A stretch of DNA of 64,000 nt, from positions 4,301,001 to 4,365,000 of the forward strand of contig NZ_CP029078.1 in assembly GCF_005222485.1 (NCBI RefSeq), read 5' to 3'. Source of the DNA: Streptomyces griseoviridis (GTDB lineage: Bacteria; Actinomycetota; Actinomycetes; Streptomycetales; Streptomycetaceae). A program made the position numbers and the translations under genes. Position 1 is the first letter of the stretch; each line of letters begins with the position of its first letter. This document shows positions 19,062 through 64,000 of the stretch, in pieces. The notes beneath the pieces were generated by a model that saw only the letters and a program-made list of their open reading frames with translations, made no database searches and was not told where the DNA came from.

Positions 19062-19796
19062 ATGAGCCCCGCCGATGGCGACCGTGACCCGCAGCGCATC
19101 CTGATCGTCGACGACGAGCCGGCCGTGCGCGAAGCACTCCAGCGCAGCCTCGCCTTCGAGGGGTACGACACCGAGGTCGCGGTGGACGGCGCGGACGCCC
19201 TGGAGAAGGCCACCGCCTACCAGCCCGACCTGGTCGTCCTCGACATCCAGATGCCGCGCATGGACGGCCTGACCGCCGCCCGCCGGATGCGGGGCGCGGG
19301 CACCACCACACCCATCCTGATGCTGACCGCCCGCGACACCGTCGGCGACCGGGTGACGGGCCTCGACGCGGGGGCCGACGACTACCTCGTCAAGCCGTTC
19401 GAGCTGGACGAGCTGTTCGCCCGCATCCGCGCCCTGCTGCGCCGCAGCTCCTACGCGGCGGCCGTGGCGGGCGCCGTCCAGGAGGACGAGGCGCTCACCT
19501 TCGGCGACCTGCGCATGGACCTCGCCACCCGCGAGGTCACCCGCGCCGGACGCCCGGTGGAGCTGACCCGCACCGAGTTCACGCTCCTGGAGATGTTCCT
19601 CGCGCACCCGCGCCAGGTCCTCACCCGTGAGCAGATCCTGAAGGCCGTCTGGGGCTTCGACTTCGAACCGTCGTCCAATTCGCTCGACGTGTACGTCATG
19701 TACCTGCGCCGCAAGACCGAGGCGGGCGGCGAGCCGCGTCTGGTACACACCGTGCGGGGCGTCGGGTACGTGCTGCGCCAGGGCGGCGCCGAGTGA
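19062..19796 (+). CDS. cssR: CssR, OmpR-family response regulator of secretion stress
   Basis: 244-aa response regulator: receiver domain (about 10-125) with acidic pair D17/D18, phosphoacceptor D61 (LVVLDIQMP) and K111 (LVKPFE), then a winged-helix output domain (about 145-240). ATG at 19062 after GAGGAACC. Its stop overlaps the GTG of cssS (GTGA). Assigned as CssR from its place between an HtrA-type protease and a kinase with a large extracytoplasmic sensor; the S. lividans pair governs HtrA-type protease expression. Confidence 0.88.
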
Positions 19797-21244
19797 GCAA
19801 GGTCGGCCGCCGCTTCCGCGCCCTGCCGATCAGGGCGCGGCTGTCGCTGCTGGTCGCCGCCGCGGTGGCGTTCGCGGTGGCCGCGGTGTCGGTGACCTGC
19901 TGGTTCATCGTGCAGGGGAAGCTGTACGACCAGCTCAACAACGACCTCCAGCGCGGGATGCGCGGCCCCGGCCAGATCCAGCAGGCCGAGATCGCCATCA
20001 ACAACTGCTCCGAGTCGCCGCAGGGCAACGGGTTCTTCCGCAACAACTACTCGCAGGTGGTCACGGAGACCGGCCGGGTCTGCGTCACGGACGACTCGAC
20101 CGGCACGGTCAAGGTCACCCAGGCCGACAAGAACGAGATCAAGGACGGCGACACCTCCCGGGTCTACTTCCGCAACGGCACCGACGGCGACGGCAACGCG
20201 GTGCGGATGATGACCCGCCCGCTCGGCCCCATCACCACGGCGGGCGGGCAGACCGGCCCGTACATCGGACTGATCGTCGCGGTGCCGCTCAAGAGCACCG
20301 AGACCACGCTCAACGACCTGGCCCTGATACTGCTGCTGGTCTCCGGCATCGGGGTGCTCGGCGCCGGGGCCGCGGGGCTCGCCGTGGCGCGGGCCGGGCT
20401 GCGTCCCGTCGACAACCTCACCGAGGCCGTCGAGCACGTCGCCCGCACCGAGGACCTCAGCATCCGCATCCCGATCGAGAACGACGCCGAGGACGAGGTG
20501 GCCCGCCTCTCCCACTCGTTCAACTCGATGACCACGGCCCTCGCCAACTCCCGTGAGCTGCAACAGCAGTTGATCGCGGACGCCGGGCACGAGCTGCGCA
20601 CCCCGCTCACCTCGCTGCGCACCAACATCGAGCTGCTCGCGCGCAGCGAGGAGACCGGGCGCCCGCTGCCCGCCGCCGATCGCAAGGCGCTGCTGGCGTC
20701 GGTGAAGGCGCAGATGACGGAGCTGGCGGCGCTGATCGGCGACCTCCAGGAGCTGGCCCGCGCGGAGGGGCAGCGCGGTGAGCGCGTCCAGGTGGTCTCC
20801 CTGGAGGACACCGTCGAGTCGGCGCTGCGCCGGGCGCGGCTGCGCGGACCCGAACTGACCATCAGCGCCGACCTCCAGCCCTGGTTCGTGCGGGCGGAGC
20901 CGTCGGCGCTCGAGCGGGCGCTCGTCAACATCCTCGACAACGCGGTGAAGTTCAGCCCGGAGGGCGGCACGATCGAGGTGCGTCTCGACGGCGGTGTCCT
21001 GACCGTCCGCGACCACGGCCCCGGCATCCCCGAGGACGAACTCCCGCACGTCTTCGACCGGTTCTGGCGTTCCCCGAGCGCCCGCGCGCTGCCCGGCTCG
21101 GGGCTCGGCCTGTCCATCGTGGCCCGCACGGTGCAGCAGGCGGGCGGCGAGGTGGCGCTGACCCGGGCCCCCGACGGCGGCACGGTGGCCACCGTCCGCC
21201 TGCCCGGCGCCCCCACCCCGCCACCGGCCGACCCGCCGCTGTAG
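19793..21244 (+). CDS. cssS: CssS, sensor histidine kinase of secretion stress
   Basis: 483-aa membrane kinase. TM1 is at about 17-38 and an extracytoplasmic sensor at about 40-165 with two cysteines. TM2 is at about 176-200, HAMP at 200-255, HisKA with H266 (DAGHELRTP), and HATPase with N-box [10 protein letters not shown]1 DHGPGIP and G2 GSGLGLSI. The C-terminus is Pro-rich. GTG start overlaps the cssR stop by 4 bp. Senses envelope or secretion stress by analogy. A strong terminator follows. Confidence 0.88.
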
Positions 21245-21332: not shown

Positions 21333-23117
21333 TCACCAGCGCAGGATCAGCGTCTCCTCGGTGGTCCGCGGGGTGTCCGTGACGGTGTCCGGGAGAGGGT
21401 GGGCCAGGCGGGCGTAGACGCCGGCCCGGGTGAGGAGTTCGTGGTGGGTGCCGGACTCCACGAGCCGGCCGCCGTCGACGACGAGGACGCGGTCCGCGTC
21501 CGGTGCCAGGCTCAGATCGTGGGTGATCATGATCGTCGTGCGGCCCGCCATCAGCCGGCGCAGCGGCCGTACCACCTGGCGGGCGGCGACCGCGTCGAGG
21601 CCGGCCGTCGGCTCGTCCAGGATCAGCACCGGCGCGGCCCGCAGCATGGCGCGGGCGATGGCGATCCGCTGGAGCTGGCCGCCGGAGAGGGCGGCCGTGC
21701 CGGGGGCGAGGGGGGTGTCGTAGCCGTCGGGCAGGGCGGTGACGAAGTCGTGGGCCGCCGCGTCGCGGGCCGCGCGTTCGATCTCGGCGTCGCTCGCGCC
21801 GGGGCGCCCCCAGCCGATGTTCTCGCGGATCGTGCCGCTGAGGACGAGGGTCTCCTGCGGGAGCAGCGCGACGTTCTCCCGCAGGAAGGCGAGGGGCAGG
21901 TCGGGCAGCGGCACGCCGTCCAGGGTGATCGTGCCGCGCGCCGGGTCGTAGAAGCGGGTCAGCAGTCTGGAGAGGGTCGACTTGCCCGCCCCGCTCGGCC
22001 CGGTGACGACGACGAGTTCGCCGGGTCCCGCGGTGAAGCCGATGTCGCGCAGGGAGGCGCGCGGGGAGCCCGGGTAGCGGAAGGACACCCCGCGCAGGGC
22101 GAGCCGTCCGCGCACCGGCCAGGCGGGGTGCGGGTGTTCGGGGTCGGTGACGGCGGGTTCGGCGTCCAGGATCTCGCCGAGCCGGTGGGCGCCCGCGGTG
22201 GCGGCGGTGAGGCTCAGCCCGAGCTGGCCGAGGCTGCGGACCGGCGGGTAGAGGTAGCCGATGAAGGCGGCGAAGGCGAGGAGCTGGCCGAGGGTCATCC
22301 GGCCGGCCGAGATCTCCCAGACGCCGACGCCGATCACCGCGAGCACGCACACCGTCTCGACGACCTCGACGAACTGCTCGTACAGCTCGCTCAGCCGGGC
22401 CCCGCGCACGGCGGCCCGCATCCAGGCGCGTGCCTCGCGGTCGAGCCGCCGTTCCTCGTCGGCGCCGCGGCCGTACGCCTGGGTGAGGACGACGTTGCCG
22501 AGGGACTCCTCGACGACGGAGGTGATGGCGCCGTCGGCGGCCCGCTCGTCCCGGGACGCCGTCCTGACGCGGCCGGCGAAGCGGCGGGCGGCCAGCAGGA
22601 AGAGCGGGGCGAGGCCGAAGGTGACCAGGGCCAGGCCCCAGCGGAGGTAGAGGGCGGCGCAGGCATAGAACACCGCGGAGAAGGCGGCGGAGATCGCGCC
22701 GACGACCCCGGAGACGACCAGTTGCTCGATGGCCTCGACGTCACCGGTGAGGCGTTCCACGAGGTCGCCTCTGCGGTGCCGCTGGAAGAAGTGCGGGGGC
22801 AGTGTCTGGACGTGCCGGAAGACGGCCGCCCGCAGCCGCAGCACGAAGCGTTCCGCGGTCCAGGTGGCGAGCGAGTTGCCGAGGTAGCCGACGAGCGCGC
22901 CCAGCACGGCCACGCCGAGCCAGGCGCAGGCCGGGGCCCAGAACGCGGTGAGCGAACCGGCTCGCAGGGCGGTGTCGGTGAGGTGCGCGAAGAGCAGGAT
23001 GGAGGCGGTCTCGGCGAGCGCGGACAGCACCACGCAGCCGACGATCACCAGCAGCCGTCCGCGGTCGCCGCGGGTCAGTGGCCAGAAGCGGCGGAAGGCC
23101 GCGCGGACGTCCGTCAT
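21333..23117 (-). CDS. ABC exporter half-transporter (permease-ATPase fusion)
   Basis: 594-aa type IV ABC exporter: six-helix membrane domain (about 15-310) followed by an ATPase domain with Walker A GPSGAGKST, signature LSGGQ and Walker B VLILDEPT. No C39 peptidase domain is fused at the N-terminus, so it would not itself cleave a leader. ATG at 23117 follows GGGAGC. It lies 94 bp downstream of two tandem genes for 41-residue cationic peptides on the same strand, separated by a large hairpin, so the peptides are candidate substrates. A lipid or drug exporter role is the alternative. Probably works as a homodimer. Confidence 0.88.
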   Translation of the reverse strand: MTDVRAAFRRFWPLTRGDRGRLLVIVGCVVLSALAETASILLFAHLTDTALRAGSLTAFWAPACAWLGVAVLGALVGYLGNSLATWTAERFVLRLRAAVFRHVQTLPPHFFQRHRRGDLVERLTGDVEAIEQLVVSGVVGAISAAFSAVFYACAALYLRWGLALVTFGLAPLFLLAARRFAGRVRTASRDERAADGAITSVVEESLGNVVLTQAYGRGADEERRLDREARAWMRAAVRGARLSELYEQFVEVVETVCVLAVIGVGVWEISAGRMTLGQLLAFAAFIGYLYPPVRSLGQLGLSLTAATAGAHRLGEILDAEPAVTDPEHPHPAWPVRGRLALRGVSFRYPGSPRASLRDIGFTAGPGELVVVTGPSGAGKSTLSRLLTRFYDPARGTITLDGVPLPDLPLAFLRENVALLPQETLVLSGTIRENIGWGRPGASDAEIERAARDAAAHDFVTALPDGYDTPLAPGTAALSGGQLQRIAIARAMLRAAPVLILDEPTAGLDAVAARQVVRPLRRLMAGRTTIMITHDLSLAPDADRVLVVDGGRLVESGTHHELLTRAGVYARLAHPLPDTVTDTPRTTEETLILRW

Positions 23118-23145
23118 GTTCGGGTGCTCCCTGGGGTGGGGGTGA

Positions 23146-23209
23146 CACGCCGAGGCGGGGCCGCCGGGCGAGCGTCGTGCGCTCACCGGTGACCCCGCCT
23201 CGTGGCGTG
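23146..23209 (-). terminator. long imperfect hairpin between peptide gene and ABC exporter gene
   Basis: The arms CACGCC-GAGGCGGGG and CCCCGCCTC-GT-GGCGTG enclose a second nested stem (CCGG.CGAGCG / CGCTC.CCGG). It begins just 2 bp after the second peptide stop codon. There is no T-run, so it may be a leaky terminator or RNA-stability element that would make the peptide transcript more abundant than the exporter transcript. Confidence 0.65.
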
Positions 23210-23211
23210 CG

Positions 23212-23337
23212 TCAGCGCTGGTGACCGACCGGGCGGCGGGTGGCGGCCCGCTTCGGCGCGGGCTTCCTGGCGGCCGGCTTCGGGGCCTGGGCGGGCTTGC
23301 GGGTCTTCTTGACGGGGGCGATCTTGTGGAAGCTCAT
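23212..23337 (-). CDS. 41-residue cationic Lys/Pro/Ala-rich peptide (copy A)
   Basis: ATG at 23337 with GAGGAGAA upstream, TGA at 23212. Starts MSFHKIAPVKK and ends RRPVGHQR; the middle alternates Lys/Arg with Pro and Ala. Its first 11 residues are identical to copy B, 160 bp upstream, and both are exactly 41 aa. There is no Cys, no Ser/Thr-rich core and no typical Sec signal. It resembles nothing I can name. Possibilities are an exported antimicrobial or signalling peptide handled by the ABC transporter downstream, or a small nucleic-acid- or ribosome-binding peptide. Confidence 0.75.
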   Translation of the reverse strand: MSFHKIAPVKKTRKPAQAPKPAARKPAPKRAATRRPVGHQR

Positions 23338-23358
23338 GGCGTTCTCCTCGGGTCGGGA

Positions 23359-23413
23359 TCGGAGTCGGGATCAGGATCGGAGTCGGAGTCGGAGTCGGAG
23401 TCGGAGTCGGAGT
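23359..23413. repeat. GGAGTC hexamer repeats upstream of peptide copy A
   Basis: A run of GGAGTC hexamers, preceded by related GGGATC/AGGATC units, occupies the 5' leader of the peptide gene just upstream of its ribosome site. Confidence 0.8.
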
Positions 23414-23460
23414 GCGACTCGGGCTCAGACTCAGGCAAGAAACCTTTTTGCTTGCGCTTG

Positions 23461-23476
23461 ATTTACGTCAGTAAAT
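23461..23476. promoter_or_regulatory. A/T-rich inverted repeat ATTTAC-GTCA-GTAAAT
   Basis: A 6-bp inverted repeat with 4-bp spacer in an A/T-rich stretch between the two peptide genes. It is well placed to be an operator or promoter element for peptide copy A. Confidence 0.45.
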
Positions 23477-23496
23477 TCTGAGTGAGGTTCCCTGAA

Positions 23497-23622
23497 TTAC
23501 TTGTGGCCGACCGGGCGGCGCTTCGGCGCCCGCTTCGGGGCGGGCTTCTCCGCGGCGGCCGGGCGGGCGGCGGGAGCGGCCTTGTGCGCCTTCTTGACCG
23601 GGGCGATCTTGTGGAAGCTCAT
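23497..23622 (-). CDS. 41-residue cationic Lys/Pro/Ala-rich peptide (copy B)
   Basis: ATG at 23622 with AAGGAGAA upstream, TAA stop. Same length and layout as copy A: identical MSFHKIAPVKK start, an Ala/Pro/Lys middle with shared KPAPKRA, and the same RRPVGH near the C-terminus. An in-frame extension to 23691 exists but lacks a ribosome site. The conserved ends and diverged middle suggest that both ends matter functionally, for example as recognition sequences. The 5' region to about 23815 is unusually A/T-rich for this chromosome. Confidence 0.75.
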   Translation of the reverse strand: MSFHKIAPVKKAHKAAPAARPAAAEKPAPKRAPKRRPVGHK

Positions 23623-23828
23623 GGTGTTCTCCTTCGGTTCGGCGACGCCTTCCGCTGCCGCGGCGCCGTTCGCTTTCGACATGGAAAACACTACGGGATA
23701 TTCGAAGCCGGGAAAGCTATTTCACCTTAGACCTGAATAAGACTGGATGTGCATTTCCTCTGAAAATAAAAACTACGTCGCGATCAGGAACCGGACCGGC
23801 GCTCACACAGGTTTTATCCCAGGCATGC

Positions 23829-23863
23829 GAAAGGCGGCCGTGTCGAGGACACGGCCGCCTTTC
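23829..23863. terminator. strong terminator downstream of the 5'-nucleotidase gene
   Basis: A perfect 16-bp stem (GAAAGGCGGCCGTGTC and its complement) with a GAG loop, 37 bp after the nucleotidase stop. It insulates that gene from the peptide locus. Confidence 0.9.
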
Positions 23864-23899
23864 GGGACTCGGGAGGTACGTCCGCTGTGCGGGGAAGGG

Positions 23900-34609: not shown

Positions 34610-34938
34610 GGCGCACCCGCCCGCGCGGCCCCGACGGCCGCAGCCTCGTCCTCACCCGGAACGCGCTGATTCTTTCCGGTTCGACGCGCGCGGGCCGCCC
34701 CGCGATATCCCGCACGCCATGTCGCCGTAACCAACGGTTCAGACGGGCTTGCGAGGCTCGGCCAATGCCGCCCGCCGCGCCAGAGCCTTCGCCGTCCACC
34801 GGGACACCCAACGGGTCGCCCCGCGGGAGGGGAACCGGGAGAACCCGCAGGACCGGAAACACCTCCGTGCCCGTCCCGCCCCTCCCGCCCGCGGCGTCCG
34901 ACGCGCCCGTACCGCCCCAGGCGCGGAAGAATGGGGCC
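34610..34938 (+). other. non-coding leader region of ppk
   Basis: About 330 bp between the permease repeat and ppk. A frame opens at 34765 but its composition and lack of a ribosome site argue that it is untranslated. A single PHO-box-like unit GTTCAGACGGG is at 34737 without the second unit needed for confidence. AAGAAT (34927-34932) lies 6 nt before the ppk ATG and could be a leaderless -10. Confidence 0.5.
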
Positions 34939-37170
34939 ATGAGCCAGCCAGACGCCCAGGCAAAGGTCAAGCACCAGCAGCCCTCCGTGGGCTCCATAGC
35001 CGCACACCGCCCGCACACGGTGGCTGCCGCGGTCTCCGATCTGGAACCCGACCTCGACGCGGACCTCGACTCCTACGAGGAAGCGCCGACCGACGGCCCC
35101 CAGCTCCCGCAGGGCCGCTTCCTGGACCGCGAGCGCAGCTGGCTCGCGTTCAACGAACGCGTCCTCGAACTGGCCGAGGACCCCGACACACCCCTGCTGG
35201 AGCGCGCGAACTTCCTCGCCATCTTCGCCAGCAACCTGGACGAGTTCTTCATGGTCCGGGTGGCCGGGCTCAAACGCCGCATCGCCACCGGCGTCGCCAC
35301 CCGCTCCGCCTCGGGACTCCAGCCCCGCGAGGTGCTGGAGATGATCTGGGCCCGCTCCCGCGAGCTGATGGCCAGGCACGCCGCCTGCTACCACGAGGAC
35401 GTCGCCCCCGCGCTCGCCGAGGAAGGCATCCACCTGGTCCGCTGGAGCGAGCTGACCGAGAAGGAGCAGGCCCGCCTCTTCACCCTGTTCCGGCACCAGA
35501 TCTTCCCCGTCCTGACCCCCCTCGCGGTCGACCCCGCGCACCCCTTCCCCTACATCTCGGGCCTCTCCCTCAACCTGGCCGTGGTCGTGCGCAACCCGGT
35601 CAGCGGCCACAAGCACTTCGCCCGCGTGAAGGTGCCCCCGCTGCTGTCCCGCTTCCTGGAGAGCTCCCCGGGCCGCTACGTCCCCATCGAGGACGTCATC
35701 GCCGCCCACCTGGAGGAGCTGTTCCCCGGCATGGAGGTGCTGGAGCACCACGCCTTCCGGCTCACCCGCAACGAGGACCTGGAGGTCGAGGAGGACGACA
35801 CCGAGAACCTCCTCCAGGCCCTGGAGAAGGAACTCATGCGGCGCCGCTTCGGGCCGCCGGTGCGCCTTGAGGTCGAGGAGTCCATCGACCGCGAGGTCCT
35901 CGACCTGCTGGTGCGCGAGCTGAAGATCTCCGAGGCCGAGGTCTACCCGCTGCCGGGCCCCCTCGACCTCACCGGCCTCTTCCGCATCCACGGCCTCGAC
36001 CGGCCCGAGCTGAAGTACCGCAAGTTCATCGCGGGCACCCACCGCGACCTCGCCGAGGTGGAGTCCGCGTCGGCGCCGGACATCTTCGCCGCCCTGCGCG
36101 AACGCGACGTCCTGCTGCACCACCCCTACGACAGCTTCTCCACCTCCGTTCAGGCCTTCCTCGAACAGGCCGCCCAGGACCCCGACGTCCTCGCCATCAA
36201 GCAGACCCTCTACCGCACCTCGGGCGACTCCCCCATAGTCGACGCCCTCATCGAGGCCGCCGAGGTCGGCAAGCAGGTCCTCGTCCTGGTGGAGATCAAG
36301 GCCCGCTTCGACGAGCACGCCAACATCAAGTGGGCGCGCAAGCTGGAAGAGGCCGGCTGCCACGTCGTCTACGGCCTGGTCGGCCTGAAGACCCACTGCA
36401 AGCTCTCCCTTGTGGTCCGCCAGGAGGGCGACACCCTGCGCAGGTACAGCCACGTCGGCACCGGCAACTACCACCCCAAGACCGCCCGCCTCTACGAGGA
36501 CCTCGGGCTGCTCACCGCGGACCCGCAGGTCGGCGCCGACCTCTCCGACCTGTTCAACCGGCTCTCCGGCTACTCCCGCCGCGAGACCTACCGCCGGCTG
36601 CTCGTCGCGCCCAAGTCCCTGCGCGACGGCCTCATCGCCCGGATCAACAAGGAGGCCCAGCACCACCGTGCCGGACGCCCCGCGTTCATCCGCATCAAGG
36701 TCAACTCGATGGTCGACGAGGCCATCATCGACGCGCTCTACCGGGCCTCGCAGGCGGGCGTGCCGGTCGACGTGTGGGTCCGCGGCATCTGCGCCGTGCG
36801 CCCCGGCGTCACCGGCCTCTCGGAGAACATACGGGTGCGCTCGATCCTCGGCCGCTTCCTCGAACACTCCCGGGTCTTCACCTTCGGCAACGGCGGCGAA
36901 CCCGAAGTGTGGATCGGCAGCGCCGACATGATGCACCGCAACCTCGACCGCCGTATCGAGGCCCTGGTCAGGGTCACCGACCCGGCCCACCGCGCGGCCC
37001 TGAACCGGCTGTTGGAGACCGGCATGTCCGAGACCACCGCGTCCTGGCACCTCGGCCCGGACGGGGAGTGGATCCGGCACGCCACCGACGCCGAGGGCGG
37101 CCCACTGCGGAACATCCAGGAGATGCTCATAGACGCCCGGAGGCGTAGGCGTGGCACAGCAACACCCTGA
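34939..37170 (+). CDS. ppk: polyphosphate kinase 1
   Basis: Reversibly polymerises the ATP gamma-phosphate into polyphosphate at the membrane-cytosol interface. 743 aa with the four PPK1 domains: N (from about 58, [20 protein letters not shown] split), head, C1 and C2. The phospho-histidine region is [16 protein letters not shown], with H505 and H512 in the conserved pair. ATG at 34939 (MSQPDAQ) is chosen over the in-frame ATG 58 codons upstream. The gene overlaps the CHAD gene by 20 bp. In Streptomyces ppk is phosphate-controlled and antagonises antibiotic production. Confidence 0.95.
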
Positions 37171-40649: not shown

Positions 40650-41270
40650 GTGCGCTTTCGTCTGACCCCCAGGGAGACGAGCTTCTACGACATGTTCGCC
40701 GCCTCCGCGGACAACATCGTCACGGGCTCGAAGCTCCTGATGGAACTGCTCGGGGCGGACACCGCCGGCCGGGCCGAGATCGCGGAGCGGATGCGGGCAG
40801 CGGAACACGCGGGCGACGACGCCACACACGCGATCTTCCACCAGCTGAACTCCTCGTTCATCACGCCGTTCGACCGCGAGGACATCTACGCCCTCGCCTC
40901 CTGCCTCGACGACATCATGGACTTCATGGAGGAGGCCGTCGACCTGGTCGTCCTCTACAACGTCGAGGAACTGCCCAAGGGCGTCGAGCAGCAGATCGAG
41001 GTGCTGGCGCGGGCCGCGGAGCTGACGGCGGAGGCGATGCCGAACCTGCGGACCATGGACAACCTCACCGAGTACTGGATCGAGGTCAACCGCCTGGAGA
41101 ACCAGGCCGACCAGATCCACCGCAAGCTGCTGGCCCACCTCTTCAACGGCAAGTACGACGCCATCGAGGTGCTGAAGCTCAAGCAGATCGTGGACGTCCT
41201 CGAAGAGGCCGCGGACGCGTTCGAGCACGTGGCGAACACGGTGGAGACCATCGCCGTCAAGGAGTCCTGA
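40650..41270 (+). CDS. PhoU-like (DUF47) protein
   Basis: 206-aa helical DUF47/PhoU-like regulator of a Pit-type transporter, with metal-binding-like EEAVDLV and the AEHAGDDATH block. GTG at 40650 after GAGGA. The next gene is the Pit transporter, starting 6 bp after the stop, the classic DUF47-Pit pair. Probably gates phosphate uptake. Confidence 0.92.
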   Translation: MRFRLTPRETSFYDMFAASADNIVTGSKLLMELLGADTAGRAEIAERMRAAEHAGDDATHAIFHQLNSSFITPFDREDIYALASCLDDIMDFMEEAVDLVVLYNVEELPKGVEQQIEVLARAAELTAEAMPNLRTMDNLTEYWIEVNRLENQADQIHRKLLAHLFNGKYDAIEVLKLKQIVDVLEEAADAFEHVANTVETIAVKES

Positions 41271-41276
41271 GCCGTC

Positions 41277-42275
41277 TTGGACACCTTCGCGCTCATCGCG
41301 ACCATCGCGGTCGCGCTGTTCTTCACGTACACGAACGGCTTCCACGACTCGGCGAACGCCATCGCCACGTCGGTGTCGACACGGGCCCTGACCCCGCGCG
41401 CGGCGCTGGCGATGGCCGCGGTGATGAACCTGGCGGGCGCCTTCCTCGGTTCGGGGGTCGCCAAGACCGTCAGCCAGGGCCTGATCCAGACGCCCGAGGG
41501 CTCCAAGGGCATGGGCATCCTCTTCGCCGCCCTGGTCGGCGCCATCGCCTGGAACCTCGTCACCTGGTACTTCGGTCTGCCGTCGTCCTCCTCGCACGCC
41601 CTCTTCGGCGGCATGGTCGGCGCGGCCCTCGCGGGCGGCACGACGGTCTACTGGGACGGCGTCCTCGACAAGGTCGTCGTCCCGATGTTCGTCTCGCCCG
41701 TGGTCGGTATCGTCGTCGGTTATCTGGTCATGACGGCGATCCTGTGGCTGTTCCGCAAGGCCAACCCGCACAAGGCCAAGCGCGGCTTCCGGATAGCGCA
41801 GACCGTCTCGGCGGCCGGCATGGCCCTCGGCCACGGCCTCCAGGACGCCCAGAAGACGATGGGCATCGTCGTGATGGCCCTGGTCATCGCGGACGTCGAG
41901 GACTACGGCGACCCGATCCCGGTCTGGGTGAAGATCGTCTGCGCGGTGATGCTGTCGCTGGGCACCTACGCGGGCGGCTGGCGCATCATGCGCACCCTCG
42001 GCCGCAAGATCATCGAACTGGACCCGCCGCAGGGCTTCGCCGCGGAGACCACCGGCGCGTCGATCATGTTCACCACGGCGTTCCTGTTCAAGGCGCCGAT
42101 CTCCACGACCCATGTCATCACCTCGGCGATCATGGGCGTCGGCGCGACCAAGCGCGTGAAGGCGGTCCGCTGGGGCGTGGCCAAGAACATCGTCCTGGGC
42201 TGGTTCATCACGATGCCGGCGGCGGCGCTGGTGGCGGCGGGGGCGTACGGCTTGGTGAACCTGGCGTTCCTGTAG
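41277..42275 (+). CDS. pitH1: Pit-family low-affinity phosphate transporter
   Basis: 332-aa Pit protein with about ten membrane segments and the duplicated PHO4 signatures GFHDSANAIATS at the N-terminus and GASIMFTTAFLFKAPISTTH late. Imports metal-phosphate by proton symport. Rare TTG start at 41277 following AAGGAG. Named by recall of PitH1 in S. coelicolor; the symbol is tentative. Confidence 0.9.
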   Translation: MDTFALIATIAVALFFTYTNGFHDSANAIATSVSTRALTPRAALAMAAVMNLAGAFLGSGVAKTVSQGLIQTPEGSKGMGILFAALVGAIAWNLVTWYFGLPSSSSHALFGGMVGAALAGGTTVYWDGVLDKVVVPMFVSPVVGIVVGYLVMTAILWLFRKANPHKAKRGFRIAQTVSAAGMALGHGLQDAQKTMGIVVMALVIADVEDYGDPIPVWVKIVCAVMLSLGTYAGGWRIMRTLGRKIIELDPPQGFAAETTGASIMFTTAFLFKAPISTTHVITSAIMGVGATKRVKAVRWGVAKNIVLGWFITMPAAALVAAGAYGLVNLAFL

Positions 42276-42340
42276 CCGGTTTTCGGCCAGGGGCCCGGTC
42301 GGCGTTCGACGCCGCAGGGCCGCTCAGCCCACCCGGCCCA

Positions 42341-42411
42341 CCCAGCCCGTCCGGCGTTTGAGGACGAGGCCGTCCAGGCCGAAGCGGGGGTTCGGGGGCG
42401 GCAGCCCCCAG
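42341..42411 (+). repeat. Streptomyces intergenic repetitive sequence
   Basis: The stretch with CCCGTCCGGCGTTTGAGGAC followed by a G-rich GGGGGCGGCAGCCCCC hairpin resembles a dispersed intergenic element I recall from many Streptomyces genomes. It fills the gap between pit and the pst terminator. Confidence 0.6.
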
Positions 42412-42444
42412 ACTCGGACCTCACCCGCACAGCGACAAACGACG

Positions 42445-42477
42445 AAGGGCCCGCCCCCGAGAACGGAGGCGGGCCTT
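42445..42477 (-). terminator. terminator of the pst operon
   Basis: A GC-rich hairpin (AAGGGCCCGCCCCC / GGAGGCGGGCCTTC with a GAGAAC loop) lies about 54 bp after the pstB stop. Confidence 0.82.
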
Positions 42478-42530
42478 CATCGTCCCCGCGGTGGCACCGC
42501 CATGCAGCACCGCGAGGGGTCCGTATCGGC

Positions 42531-43307
42531 CTAGCCGAAGCGCCCCGAGATGTAGTCCTCCGTGGCCTGGACAGACGGGTTGGAGAAGATCCGCTCCGTG
42601 TCGTCTATCTCGATCAGCCGACCGGGCTGCCCGACCGCGGAGAGGTTGAAGAACGCCGTGCGGTCGGAGACCCGCGCCGCCTGCTGCATGTTGTGCGTCA
42701 CGATGACGATCGTGAAGCGCTCCTTCAGCTCCCCGATCAGGTCCTCGATGGCGAGCGTCGAGATCGGGTCGAGGGCCGAGCAGGGCTCGTCCATCAGCAG
42801 CACCTTCGGCTCGACGGCGATCGCGCGGGCGATGCACAGCCGCTGCTGCTGACCGCCCGACAGCCCCGAGCCGGGCTTGTTCAGACGGTCCTTGACCTCG
42901 TTCCAGAGGTTCGCGCCCTTGAGCGACTTCTCGACGACGTCGTTCAGCTCGCTCTTCTTGTGGCTGCCGTTGAGCCGCAGCCCCGCCGCCACGTTGTCGA
43001 AGATCGACATGGTGGGGAACGGGTTCGGCCGCTGGAACACCATGCCGATCTCGCGTCGCACGGAGACCGGGTCGATGCCCTGCCCGTACAGGTCCTCCTG
43101 GTCGAGGAGGACCTTGCCCTCGACCCGGCCGCCCGGGGTGACCTCGTGCATCCGGTTCAGGGTGCGCAGGAACGTCGACTTGCCGCAGCCCGAGGGACCG
43201 ATGAACGCCGTCACCGAACGCGGTTCGACGGTCATCGAGATGTCCTCGATCGCCTTGTGGGACCCGTAGAAAGCGGTGAGCCCGCTCACATCGATTCGCT
43301 TGGCCAT
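42531..43307 (-). CDS. pstB: phosphate ABC transporter ATPase PstB
   Basis: 258 aa; Walker [10 protein letters not shown], PstB-typical VFQRPNPFP, signature LSGGQQQR and Walker [13 protein letters not shown]. Energises PstSCA high-affinity phosphate uptake. Last gene of the operon; ATG at 43307, 40 bp after pstA. Confidence 0.96.
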
Positions 43308-43347
43308 GATTACGTCACTTCCAGAATTCTCGGTCGCTTGGGCCGCG

Positions 43348-44409
43348 TCAGCGACCGGACTGCGGGGCCTTCCAGCGGGCGATGCCGCGGGCCAGCAGGT
43401 TCAGGATCATCACGAAGGCGATCAGGGTGAGCGACGCCGCCCAGGCCCTGTCGTACGCGGCGTTCGCGCCCGCGCTGTTCGCGTACTGCTGGTAGATGTA
43501 CAGCGGCAGCGACTGCTGGGCGCCCTCGAAGGGGTTGTTGTTGATGAACCGGTTGCCGAACACCAGCAGCAGCACCGGCGCGGTCTCGCCGGCGATCCGG
43601 GCGATGGCCAGCATGATGCCGGTCGTGATGCCGCCGATGGAGGTCGGCAGGACCACCTTCAGGATGGTGCGCCACTTCGGGATGCCCAGCGCGAGCGACG
43701 CCTCGCGCAGCTCGTTCGGGACGAGCTTGAGCATCTCCTCGGTGGAGCGGACGACGACCGGGACCATCAGGATGGCCAGGGCCAGCGAACCGGCGAAGCC
43801 GAACGGCTCCATCTCGAAGATCAGCATGAGGCTGAGGATGAAAAGGCCCGCGACGACCGACGGGATGCCCGTCATGACGTCGACGAAGAAGGTGACCGCG
43901 CGGGCCAGACCGCCGCGGCCGTACTCGACGAGGTAGATCGCGGTGAGGACGCCGATCGGCGCGGCCATCAGGGTGGCGAGGCCGACCTGCTCAAGGCTGC
44001 CGATGATGGCGTGGTAGATGCCGCCGCCCGGCTGGGAGTCGGCGACGATGCCCATCGAGTGGGTCAGGAAGTAGAGGTCGAGGACCTTGGTGCCGCGCGC
44101 GACGGTCGTCCACACCAGGGAGACCAGCGGGACGACGGCGAGCAGGAACGCGACCCAGACCAGGCTGGTCGCGATGCGGTCCTTGGCCTGCCGGCGGCCC
44201 TCCACCTTGGCGGCGAGCACATAGGTCGCGACCAGGAACAGGAGTCCGGCGATCAGGCCCCACTGGATGCGGCTTTCGATGCCCGCGACCAGGCCGAGCA
44301 GGACGGCGACGGCCAGCGATCCGGCGGCGATCGCCCAGGGCGACCACTTCGGCAGGGAGGCGCCGCGCAGGGTGCTGGGGCGTTCTTCGGTGACGGCTGC
44401 GTGGCTCAT
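43348..44409 (-). CDS. pstA: phosphate ABC transporter permease PstA
   Basis: 353-aa permease with about eight hydrophobic spans, of which the N-terminal two are an extension, and the EAA-type loop around [18 protein letters not shown] at 44409 overlaps the pstC stop by 4 bp. Confidence 0.95.
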
Positions 44410-45413
44410 GCGTTGGCCCCCGAGTACTCCTTGCGGCGGGCGATGATGAGCCGGGCCGCGCCGTTGACCAGCAGGGTGATGACGAACAGCACGAGGCCGG
44501 ACGCGATCAGCGCGTCCCGGCCGAACTCGTTGGCCTCACCGAACTTGCTGGCGATGTTCTGGGCGAAGGTGCCGCCGCCCGGGTTGAGCAGGCTGAGGTG
44601 GATCAGGAAGTCCGGGGAGAGCACCGTCGCGACGGCCATCGTCTCGCCGAGGGCGCGGCCGAGGCCGAGCATCGAGGCGGAGATGACGCCGGAGCGGCCG
44701 AACGGCAGCACCGACATCCTGATGACCTCCCAGCGGGTGGCGCCGAGCGCCAGCGCCGCTTCCTGGTGCATCAGCGGCGCCTGCCGGAAGACCTCGCGGC
44801 TCACGTTGGTGATGATCGGCAGGATCATGATCGCGAGCAGGATGCCGACGGTGAGCATCGAGCGCGGGGCGCCTTCCTCCCAGGAGAAGAAGCCGGTCCA
44901 GCCGAAGTAGTCGTTGAGCCAGCCGAAGAGGCCGTTGAGGTTCGGGACGAGGATCAGGGCGCCCCAGAGGCCGTAGACGATCGACGGCACCGCGGCGAGC
45001 AGGTCGATCACGTAGGAGATCGGGCCGCTCAGCCTGCGGGGGGCGTAGTGGGTGAGGAAGAGCGCGATGGCGACGGCGACCGGCACCGCGATGACCATGG
45101 CGATGATCGACGAGATCACCGTGCCGTAGGCCAGGACGGCGATGCCGAAGGTCGGCGGGGTGACGCCGGTGTTCCACTCGAAGGTGGTGAGGAAGTTGCC
45201 GTGGTCCTCGCTGATGGCGAGGGACGCGCGGTAGGTGAGGAAGACCGCGATCGCGGCCATGACCACGAGCAGCAGAATGCCCGAGCCGCGGGAGAGGCCG
45301 AGGAAGATCCGGTCTCCGGGTCGGGTGGCGCCGCGGGCGGCGCGCTTGCTGCCGGCCTCGGTGGGCTGCGGGGTGGGCGGCGGCGCTTCGGTGTTCTTGG
45401 TCGTTATGTCCAT
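44406..45413 (-). CDS. pstC: phosphate ABC transporter permease PstC
   Basis: 335-aa permease with six core spans and a cytoplasmic loop QEAALALGATRWEVI. ATG at 45413 follows GGAGAACCCG. An 18-bp perfect hairpin separates it from pstS. Confidence 0.95.
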   Translation of the reverse strand: MDITTKNTEAPPPTPQPTEAGSKRAARGATRPGDRIFLGLSRGSGILLLVVMAAIAVFLTYRASLAISEDHGNFLTTFEWNTGVTPPTFGIAVLAYGTVISSIIAMVIAVPVAVAIALFLTHYAPRRLSGPISYVIDLLAAVPSIVYGLWGALILVPNLNGLFGWLNDYFGWTGFFSWEEGAPRSMLTVGILLAIMILPIITNVSREVFRQAPLMHQEAALALGATRWEVIRMSVLPFGRSGVISASMLGLGRALGETMAVATVLSPDFLIHLSLLNPGGGTFAQNIASKFGEANEFGRDALIASGLVLFVITLLVNGAARLIIARRKEYSGANA

Positions 45414-45502
45414 CGGGTTCTCCGGTCTGCGGACCCGCACACGGGGTGCGGCTCTGCGAAGCCGTACGCGGGGTACGGCTCATGGCGGCGGTGCACCGGA
45501 CG

Positions 45503-61500: not shown

Positions 61501-61619
61501 GTTCGGCGGCGTCCTACTCTCCCACAGGGTCCCCCCTGCAGTACCATCGGCGCTGAAAGGCTTAGCTTCCGGGTTCGGAATGTAACCGGGCGTTTCCCTC
61601 ACGCTATAACCACCGAAAC
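61501..61619 (-). rRNA. rrf: 5S ribosomal RNA
   Basis: Reverse complement starts GTTTCGGTGG and ends CGCCGCCGAAC, with the conserved 5S interior CCGAACCCGGAAG. About 119 nt; ends may shift by a base or two. Confidence 0.95.
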
Positions 61620-61720
61620 ACTATGAAACTATCCAGCCACACCACAACCAACCCAGCAAAGGGTTCAGGTGTGGGGCTGTTCGTGGTTTCAGAACCAACA
61701 CAGTGGACGCGAGCAACTGA
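61620..61720 (-). other. 23S-5S spacer
   Basis: About 100 bp with no tRNA; contains sequences complementary around the mature ends that presumably form processing stems. Confidence 0.7.

Positions 61721-64000
<2,280 letters not shown>

Follow-up and report, generated by a model that had tools for sequence, protein, structure and literature searches.

Short ribosomal peptides encoded beside an ABC exporter devoid of a C39 domain are known from a few systems, namely RamS with RamA/RamB (SapB), NisT and McjD. The locus considered here, within a window of 64,000 nucleotides (the whole stretch of DNA that was analysed) from Streptomyces griseoviridis, is like these systems in that a short peptide gene stands with a C39-less ABC exporter. 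Two other groups bear on its interpretation, namely the linear cationic host-defence peptides, which include proline-rich peptides, histatins, shepherins and protamine-like peptides, and the attenuator leader peptides, which occur upstream of resistance exporters. From their linkage to the exporter, co-diversification, copy-number growth and protein-level constraint, the peptides described below are likely to be the cargo of this dedicated exporter.

On the minus strand of the window, two peptide genes of 41 codons each follow one another, the first, P0002 (MSFHKIAPVKKAHKAAPAARPAAAEKPAPKRAPKRRPVGHK), at 23497..23622 and the second, P0001 (MSFHKIAPVKKTRKPAQAPKPAARKPAPKRAATRRPVGHQR), at 23212..23337. 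Both have the same MSFHKIAPVKK start and the same RRPVGH near the C-terminal end, as well as a third-position GC of 0.98, and the proposal of the sequence-only reading that they are 41-codon paralogues with these common elements was confirmed for both ORFs by translation, third-position GC and homologues. No third copy was found in the own genome, where the next-best match had an E of 0.3. Neither Pfam (no match at E <= 1) nor NCBIfam (one match each, at 11 and 12 bits vs. cut-offs of 150 and 200) provides a family for P0001 and P0002, and a Gly-Gly (GG-type leader) is absent from both. Between the two genes, about 11 TCGGAG hexamers are arrayed at window positions 23348-23413.

The protein search returned 113 peptide homologues at E <= 1, of 34-70 aa, mostly unnamed or labelled 'hypothetical' and without any Pfam domain listed; their named sources are Streptomyces, except one labelled Actinobacteria bacterium OK074. 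The family is present in 60 of 392 Streptomyces genomes, each carrier having 1 to 5 copies arrayed head-to-tail. Across 123 distinct peptide genes taken from the fetched loci (125 before removal of two with a different N-terminal pattern), lengths range from 34 to 50 aa and net charge from +8 to +14, and the middle of these Lys/Pro/Ala peptides is composed of 27% Lys, 24% Pro, 23% Ala and 10% Arg. Pro8 is invariant throughout, being encoded by CCC in 66 genes, CCG in 56 and CCT in one; kept despite such codon switches, it is, judging from the codons, under protein-level constraint. Codons 2, 3 and 5 are nearly invariant, so that DNA-level conservation or shared ancestry also contributes. As judged from Pfam, NCBIfam and PADLOC, this points to a so far uncharacterised peptide family; since its members match no Pfam or NCBIfam family, many such small ORFs can go unnoticed near annotated ABC transporters.

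The adjoining gene, at 21333..23117 on the minus strand, encodes P0003, a stand-alone exporter of 594 aa in which ABC_membrane is fused to ABC_tran, i.e. an exporter of the ABCB type (type IV fold); no peptidase (C39) appears among its 17 Pfam matches and its best solved-structure matches are ABCB exporters. The PADLOC matches of P0003 span residues 445-550 only, i.e. the ATPase half, and a defence-system assignment was set aside on this ground. The fifth transmembrane segment (TM5) carries Glu at 244, 247, 251 and 254, which align (positions counted by hand) to N308, M311, F315 and I318 of the P-glycoprotein chain 9nfi_A, positions that we take to lie on the pocket-lining side of TM5. An acidic residue occupies the E254 position in all of the clade exporters that were aligned (114 of 114) vs. 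1 of 13 other ABCBs encoded in the own genome; Gln is found there in two additional profile members, L188 and L196, and Glu in three exporters under the profile score limit (L202-L204). TM5 is acidic in exporter clades A and B, and outside clade A its acidity shows no correlation with the charge of the peptide (rho -0.09, n = 51), which makes an acidic cavity matched to peptide charge a partial idea at most. The E254 residue is, as far as these alignments go, a more general mark of the exporter clade than overall TM5 acidity.

Past the exporter and convergent with it lies a histidine kinase/response regulator pair (window 19062-21244), which occurs, otherwise arranged, beside the peptide-exporter pair in another class (L215-L218); a sensing link is possible. 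Upstream of the peptides, a protein with a 5'-nucleotidase domain is encoded, and the perfect 17-bp inverted repeat located directly past its ORF (window 23828-23864) is possibly the terminator of that ORF. The window also contains a polyphosphate kinase gene (ppk, 34765-37170), PhoU-, Pit- and Pst-like genes at about 40650-45440 (by eye, from ORF starts) and, on the minus strand at 61501-64000, rRNA (5S and partial 23S). No peptidase or modifying enzyme was found among the neighbours of the window pair; the earlier statement to this effect stands for the window and fails for a sister branch, which has a Ser/Thr kinase gene.

The sequence-only reading had linked the peptides to the adjoining exporter and proposed their co-occurrence in other Streptomyces genomes as a check. 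From the comparison of match positions, the exporter gene stands beside the peptides, on the same strand, in 57 of the 60 peptide-bearing genomes (392 searched), so that the check was passed, and this adjacency, together with the tracking of exporter clade by peptide type, strongly supports the link. The peptide-to-exporter distance is 71-373 nt in 56 of the 57 genomes; in G141, a frameshift affects the exporter gene, and the 822-nt distance to the peptide is taken up by the first half of this gene. As for the exceptions, G255 and G252 have exporter fragments, the peptide start being also lost in G252, and G169 has a weak 114-aa exporter match only. Exporter sequence likewise comes after the peptides in 35 of 35 named loci, with most of the exporter missing at L012 and L022 and its match in several pieces at L037.

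At L013 and L023, the other window neighbours were searched in the fetched stretch and none was detected, so that peptide and exporter can move together, and pure synteny as the cause of their adjacency was rejected on these two loci and on the persistence of the pair in another class. The same adjacency to one exporter clade, at these non-syntenic loci and in another class, counts against considering the peptides as intracellular, basic and nucleic-acid-binding, unrelated to exporter cargo. The Lys/Pro/Ala and Arg-rich tails do resemble histone-H1-type tails and one homologue, P0069, was named 'Histone H1' by its source, but the His/Gly/Asp and 31-aa Pro-rich peptides are unlike DNA-binding ones, and such an intracellular role seems unlikely. 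Intact peptide genes are also found beside a lost or damaged exporter at L012 (10380-10961), L022 (10234-11107), L121 (3717-3839) and L122 (3961-5263), which indicates that these genes can be retained without an intact exporter; given this survival, a strong toxicity of the peptides towards their host is improbable.

Between the last peptide gene and the exporter, a terminator-like hairpin without a T run in the window lies at 23151..23202 on the minus strand, as an inverted repeat with arms of 17 nt (23151-23167 and 23186-23202) that are 88% complementary. Its palindrome pattern has one match in the 8.96-Mb genome and the backward-read control also has one per strand, which shows only that the element is not repeated. 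In clade A, the gap between peptide and exporter folds with z below -2 at 51 of 52 loci (median -3.96) and the stem GAGGCGGGG/CCCCGCCTC is common to sister loci, covariation support being small because the stem barely varies. Such z values are reached by 20 of 42 gaps at loci under 76% exporter identity and by 3 of 34 gaps between peptide genes. The hairpin, described from the outset as separating peptides from exporter, is conserved in sister loci, where it comes after the array rather than between the peptides.

Upstream of the first peptide gene, a conserved promoter-like or 5'-UTR block, CGTAGTGTTTTCCATGTCGAAAG, is located at 23673..23695 on the minus strand, with the consensus CCGTAxTGTTTTCCATGTCGAAAGCGAAC across loci. 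It is found ahead of the first peptide in 54 of 68 upstream regions vs. 4 of 54 for later peptides, and it is present at one site in the own genome, where the control pattern had no match. Since no more than 28 of the 54 blocks share the reading frame of the peptide, the block is treated as promoter or 5'-UTR sequence, and the N-terminal extension (MSKAN...) that gene callers predict for the first peptide was rejected on the same count. The block would fit a dedicated promoter and the hairpin a partial terminator; from their conservation, both peptide genes would be transcribed from this upstream region, and the hairpin after the last of them would limit read-through, resulting in more peptide than exporter.

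The layout of small ORF, terminator-like hairpin and exporter is also the one expected from leader-peptide attenuation, where translation of the small ORF would control hairpin read-through into the exporter and the peptide itself would be functionless, and Pro and Lys/Arg runs slow ribosomes. This sits poorly with up to five tandem copies having hairpins between them so rarely (the 3 of 34 above), with an N-terminal motif conserved at the protein level and with the peptide ORF of L152 being on the strand opposite to the exporter; besides, no stalling logic is known for the His/Gly/Asp versions. A stretch complementary to a hairpin arm over 7 nt or more lies within the last peptide ORF at 1 of 54 loci and, with no antiterminator partner in this ORF at the other 53, classical attenuation was rejected. 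Attenuation as a whole is regarded as improbable.

The survey from the exporter side covers a larger set. At E <= 1e-150, 103 of 392 Streptomyces genomes were matched, among the matches listed and with three candidates scored per genome. Part of those listed, amounting to 111 distinct exporters, was examined upstream; these come from the 30 best exporter-search loci, 40 chosen regions (three being peptide sites), 35 named loci and 18 loci from a class-wide search of 394 genomes (18 genomes matched). A filter for upstream ORFs (ATG, ribosome-site-like motif, GC3, hydrophilic, 24-80 aa) was positive for a small hydrophilic ORF at 98 of the 111 clade exporters, i.e. 56/60 at an exporter identity of at least 76%, 8/10 at 71-75%, 19/21 at 65-70% and 15/20 under 55%; as a control, it fired at 3 of 21 other ABCBs encoded in the own genome, the N-terminal motif being absent from all three. 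By-eye inspection, which is less strict than the filter, revealed a peptide at 12 of the 13 filter misses (total 110/111), including L012, L022 and L122, where the exporter is damaged, and L152; the remaining miss, L133, is a locus cut by a contig end. The L152 peptide ORF, MSHHHGRRHRRPKKKPFDVTPTPVTPVTP..., extends from minus-strand 1880 onward (reverse-complement coordinates), on the opposite strand to its exporter.

At the level of the phylum, a profile search of 396 genomes gave 18 places above 600 bits, of which 14 were new. An Arg-rich peptide lies upstream of the exporter at 11 of the 12 assessable new places (L200 and L201 being left out), and at L188, where the exporter is present, none was visible when an upstream peptide was looked for. 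Among the exporters below 600 bits, 1 of the 12 fetched has such peptides, namely L203 with two in tandem, and this exporter falls inside the clade in the tree. The plasmid collection gave one match, on a Nonomuraea gerenzanensis replicon whose record lists no genes at this position; the ORF that precedes the exporter there is Cys/Trp/Arg-rich.

Peptide composition tracks the exporter clade on the exporter trees (quick ones, flagged for long branches), with Lys/Pro/Ala, Pro-rich, Arg/Gly, His/Gly and poly-Arg versions. The Lys/Pro/Ala peptides are mostly found with exporters of 71-89% identity, the MSFKKLAPLPPKPKSKQLPPPPKP types with one exporter clade of 69-70%, the Arg/Gly-rich peptides with a separate clade of 66-68% and the MAIFSSLMPA peptides with His/Gly repeats with a clade of 47-50%; the 31-residue MPLKKILPPPPKPKKHKKPLPPPLPKKP types belong to another family of the class, and Cys/Trp/Arg-rich peptides to a further genus, the one in Nonomuraea gerenzanensis being similar. 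In the under-55% tier, net charge extends from -10 to +14. The pattern for the N-terminal motif was drawn up with the data in view; of the 98 filter-positive loci it fits 89, and the motif is absent or off-pattern in 9, with L118, L119, L147, L156 and L158 clearly lacking it. The description of these peptides as conserved ends around a variable core thus holds for the Lys/Pro/Ala clade and breaks down elsewhere, where a short N-terminal motif at most is retained and the composition is wholly changed. Pfam and NCBIfam searches on 10 peptides from the other clades yielded 0/10 each (at E <= 0.01 for Pfam). Over nine poly-Arg peptides, Arg is encoded by CGC (58), CGT (36), CGG (30), AGG (24), AGA (5) and CGA (1); with all six codons mixed, the amino acid is conserved and the DNA repeat is not, so that a microsatellite artefact was dismissed for these tracts.

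Tight gene pairing and co-diversification would be expected just as well from a binding partner of the exporter, that is a peptide acting as its subunit or regulator instead of being its cargo. Several non-identical peptide copies per exporter, and a composition that changes wholesale while the exporter stays similar, are difficult to reconcile with such a role, which is considered very improbable.

In the superclade with MAxF...PA peptides, a protein kinase gene directly follows the exporter gene in 19 of 23 tree rows, and PF00069 was found in the five kinases tested; this Ser/Thr kinase gene often overlaps the exporter gene (L214-L220, L230, L231, L233). The exceptions are L152, cut there, L159 and L196, without kinase, and L188, not scored for kinase. 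No kinase was found after the exporter in the 32 rows of the superclade to which the window's exporter belongs. The median Ser+Thr content of the peptides is 0.178 with kinase (n = 19) vs. 0.024 without (n = 96), an association for which the tree counts few independent changes (5); L196 has neither kinase nor Ser/Thr, and L159, without kinase, has a Ser+Thr content of 0.08 like its sisters. From this co-occurrence, the peptide of the sister branch is a probable substrate of the kinase whose gene follows the exporter gene, in which case the Ser/Thr to be phosphorylated sit among arginines. Through this branch, a pathway of peptide phosphorylation and export in bacteria would become open to direct testing.

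Regarding the export of the peptides by the adjoining exporter, a homodimer of the latter would recognise the N-terminal tag, i.e. M-S-F-x-K-[IV]-x-P here and M-A-x-F-x(3,4)-P-A in the sister branch, and the remainder of the peptide would be a low-complexity, usually polycationic payload. As the exporter is devoid of C39 and a conserved peptidase was not seen in its neighbourhood, the payload would leave the cell uncut. Outside the cell, binding to membranes or polyanions would be most likely, by analogy with linear cationic antimicrobial peptides; an antimicrobial role specifically is given slightly less than an even chance. At its broadest, the proposal is that of a hitherto unrecognised Actinomycetota system in which hyperdiverse mini-peptides with interchangeable payloads are exported by a tag-reading, TM5-acidic ABCB clade, one branch being kinase-phosphorylated before export, and it is offered tentatively, as less likely than not to hold.

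Export could also serve purposes other than killing, with the peptides binding wall polymers of the producer, extracellular DNA, polyphosphate or metals, or having morphogenetic or signalling functions, a reading that shares export with the main one and is, as to function, considered less likely than not. Metal binding suits the His/Gly-rich members, some peptides of the under-55% tier are not net cationic, peptide genes survive beside damaged exporters and the window is near phosphate/polyphosphate genes such as ppk. However, a single binding partner is hard to fit with Pro-rich, poly-Arg and His/Gly compositions alike, and L013 and L023, as far as they were fetched, lack such a phosphate neighbourhood. 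Should export be borne out, this exporter clade could be used to track down unmodified cationic peptides throughout a phylum that is known as a source of antibiotics.

When set against known systems, the window branch differs from RamS, NisT and McjD by the lack of a modifying enzyme and of a separate leader and core, by its low-complexity payload and by its tandem diverged copies. It also stands apart from double-glycine/C39 bacteriocin systems, having neither C39 on the exporter nor a GG leader in the peptides, and from RiPP clusters, no modifying enzyme being adjacent in the window. Like attenuator leaders, it combines a small ORF, a hairpin and an exporter; unlike them, it has tandem ORFs conserved at the protein level and no antiterminator partner at 53 of 54 loci. 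The exporter belongs by sequence to the ABCB fold family, like P-glycoprotein, MsbA and Sav1866, and is unlike most other ABCBs of the own genome in the acidic residue E254 in TM5 of the aligned clade exporters. In overall composition, which changes from clade to clade (Pro/Lys, His-rich, His/Gly repeats, poly-Arg), the peptides resemble host-defence peptides, no homology being claimed; unlike the latter, they are bacterial, carry an N-terminal tag and have a dedicated exporter. If the proposal is true, bacteria would have in this mini-peptide system an equivalent of the linear host-defence peptides known from animals and plants.
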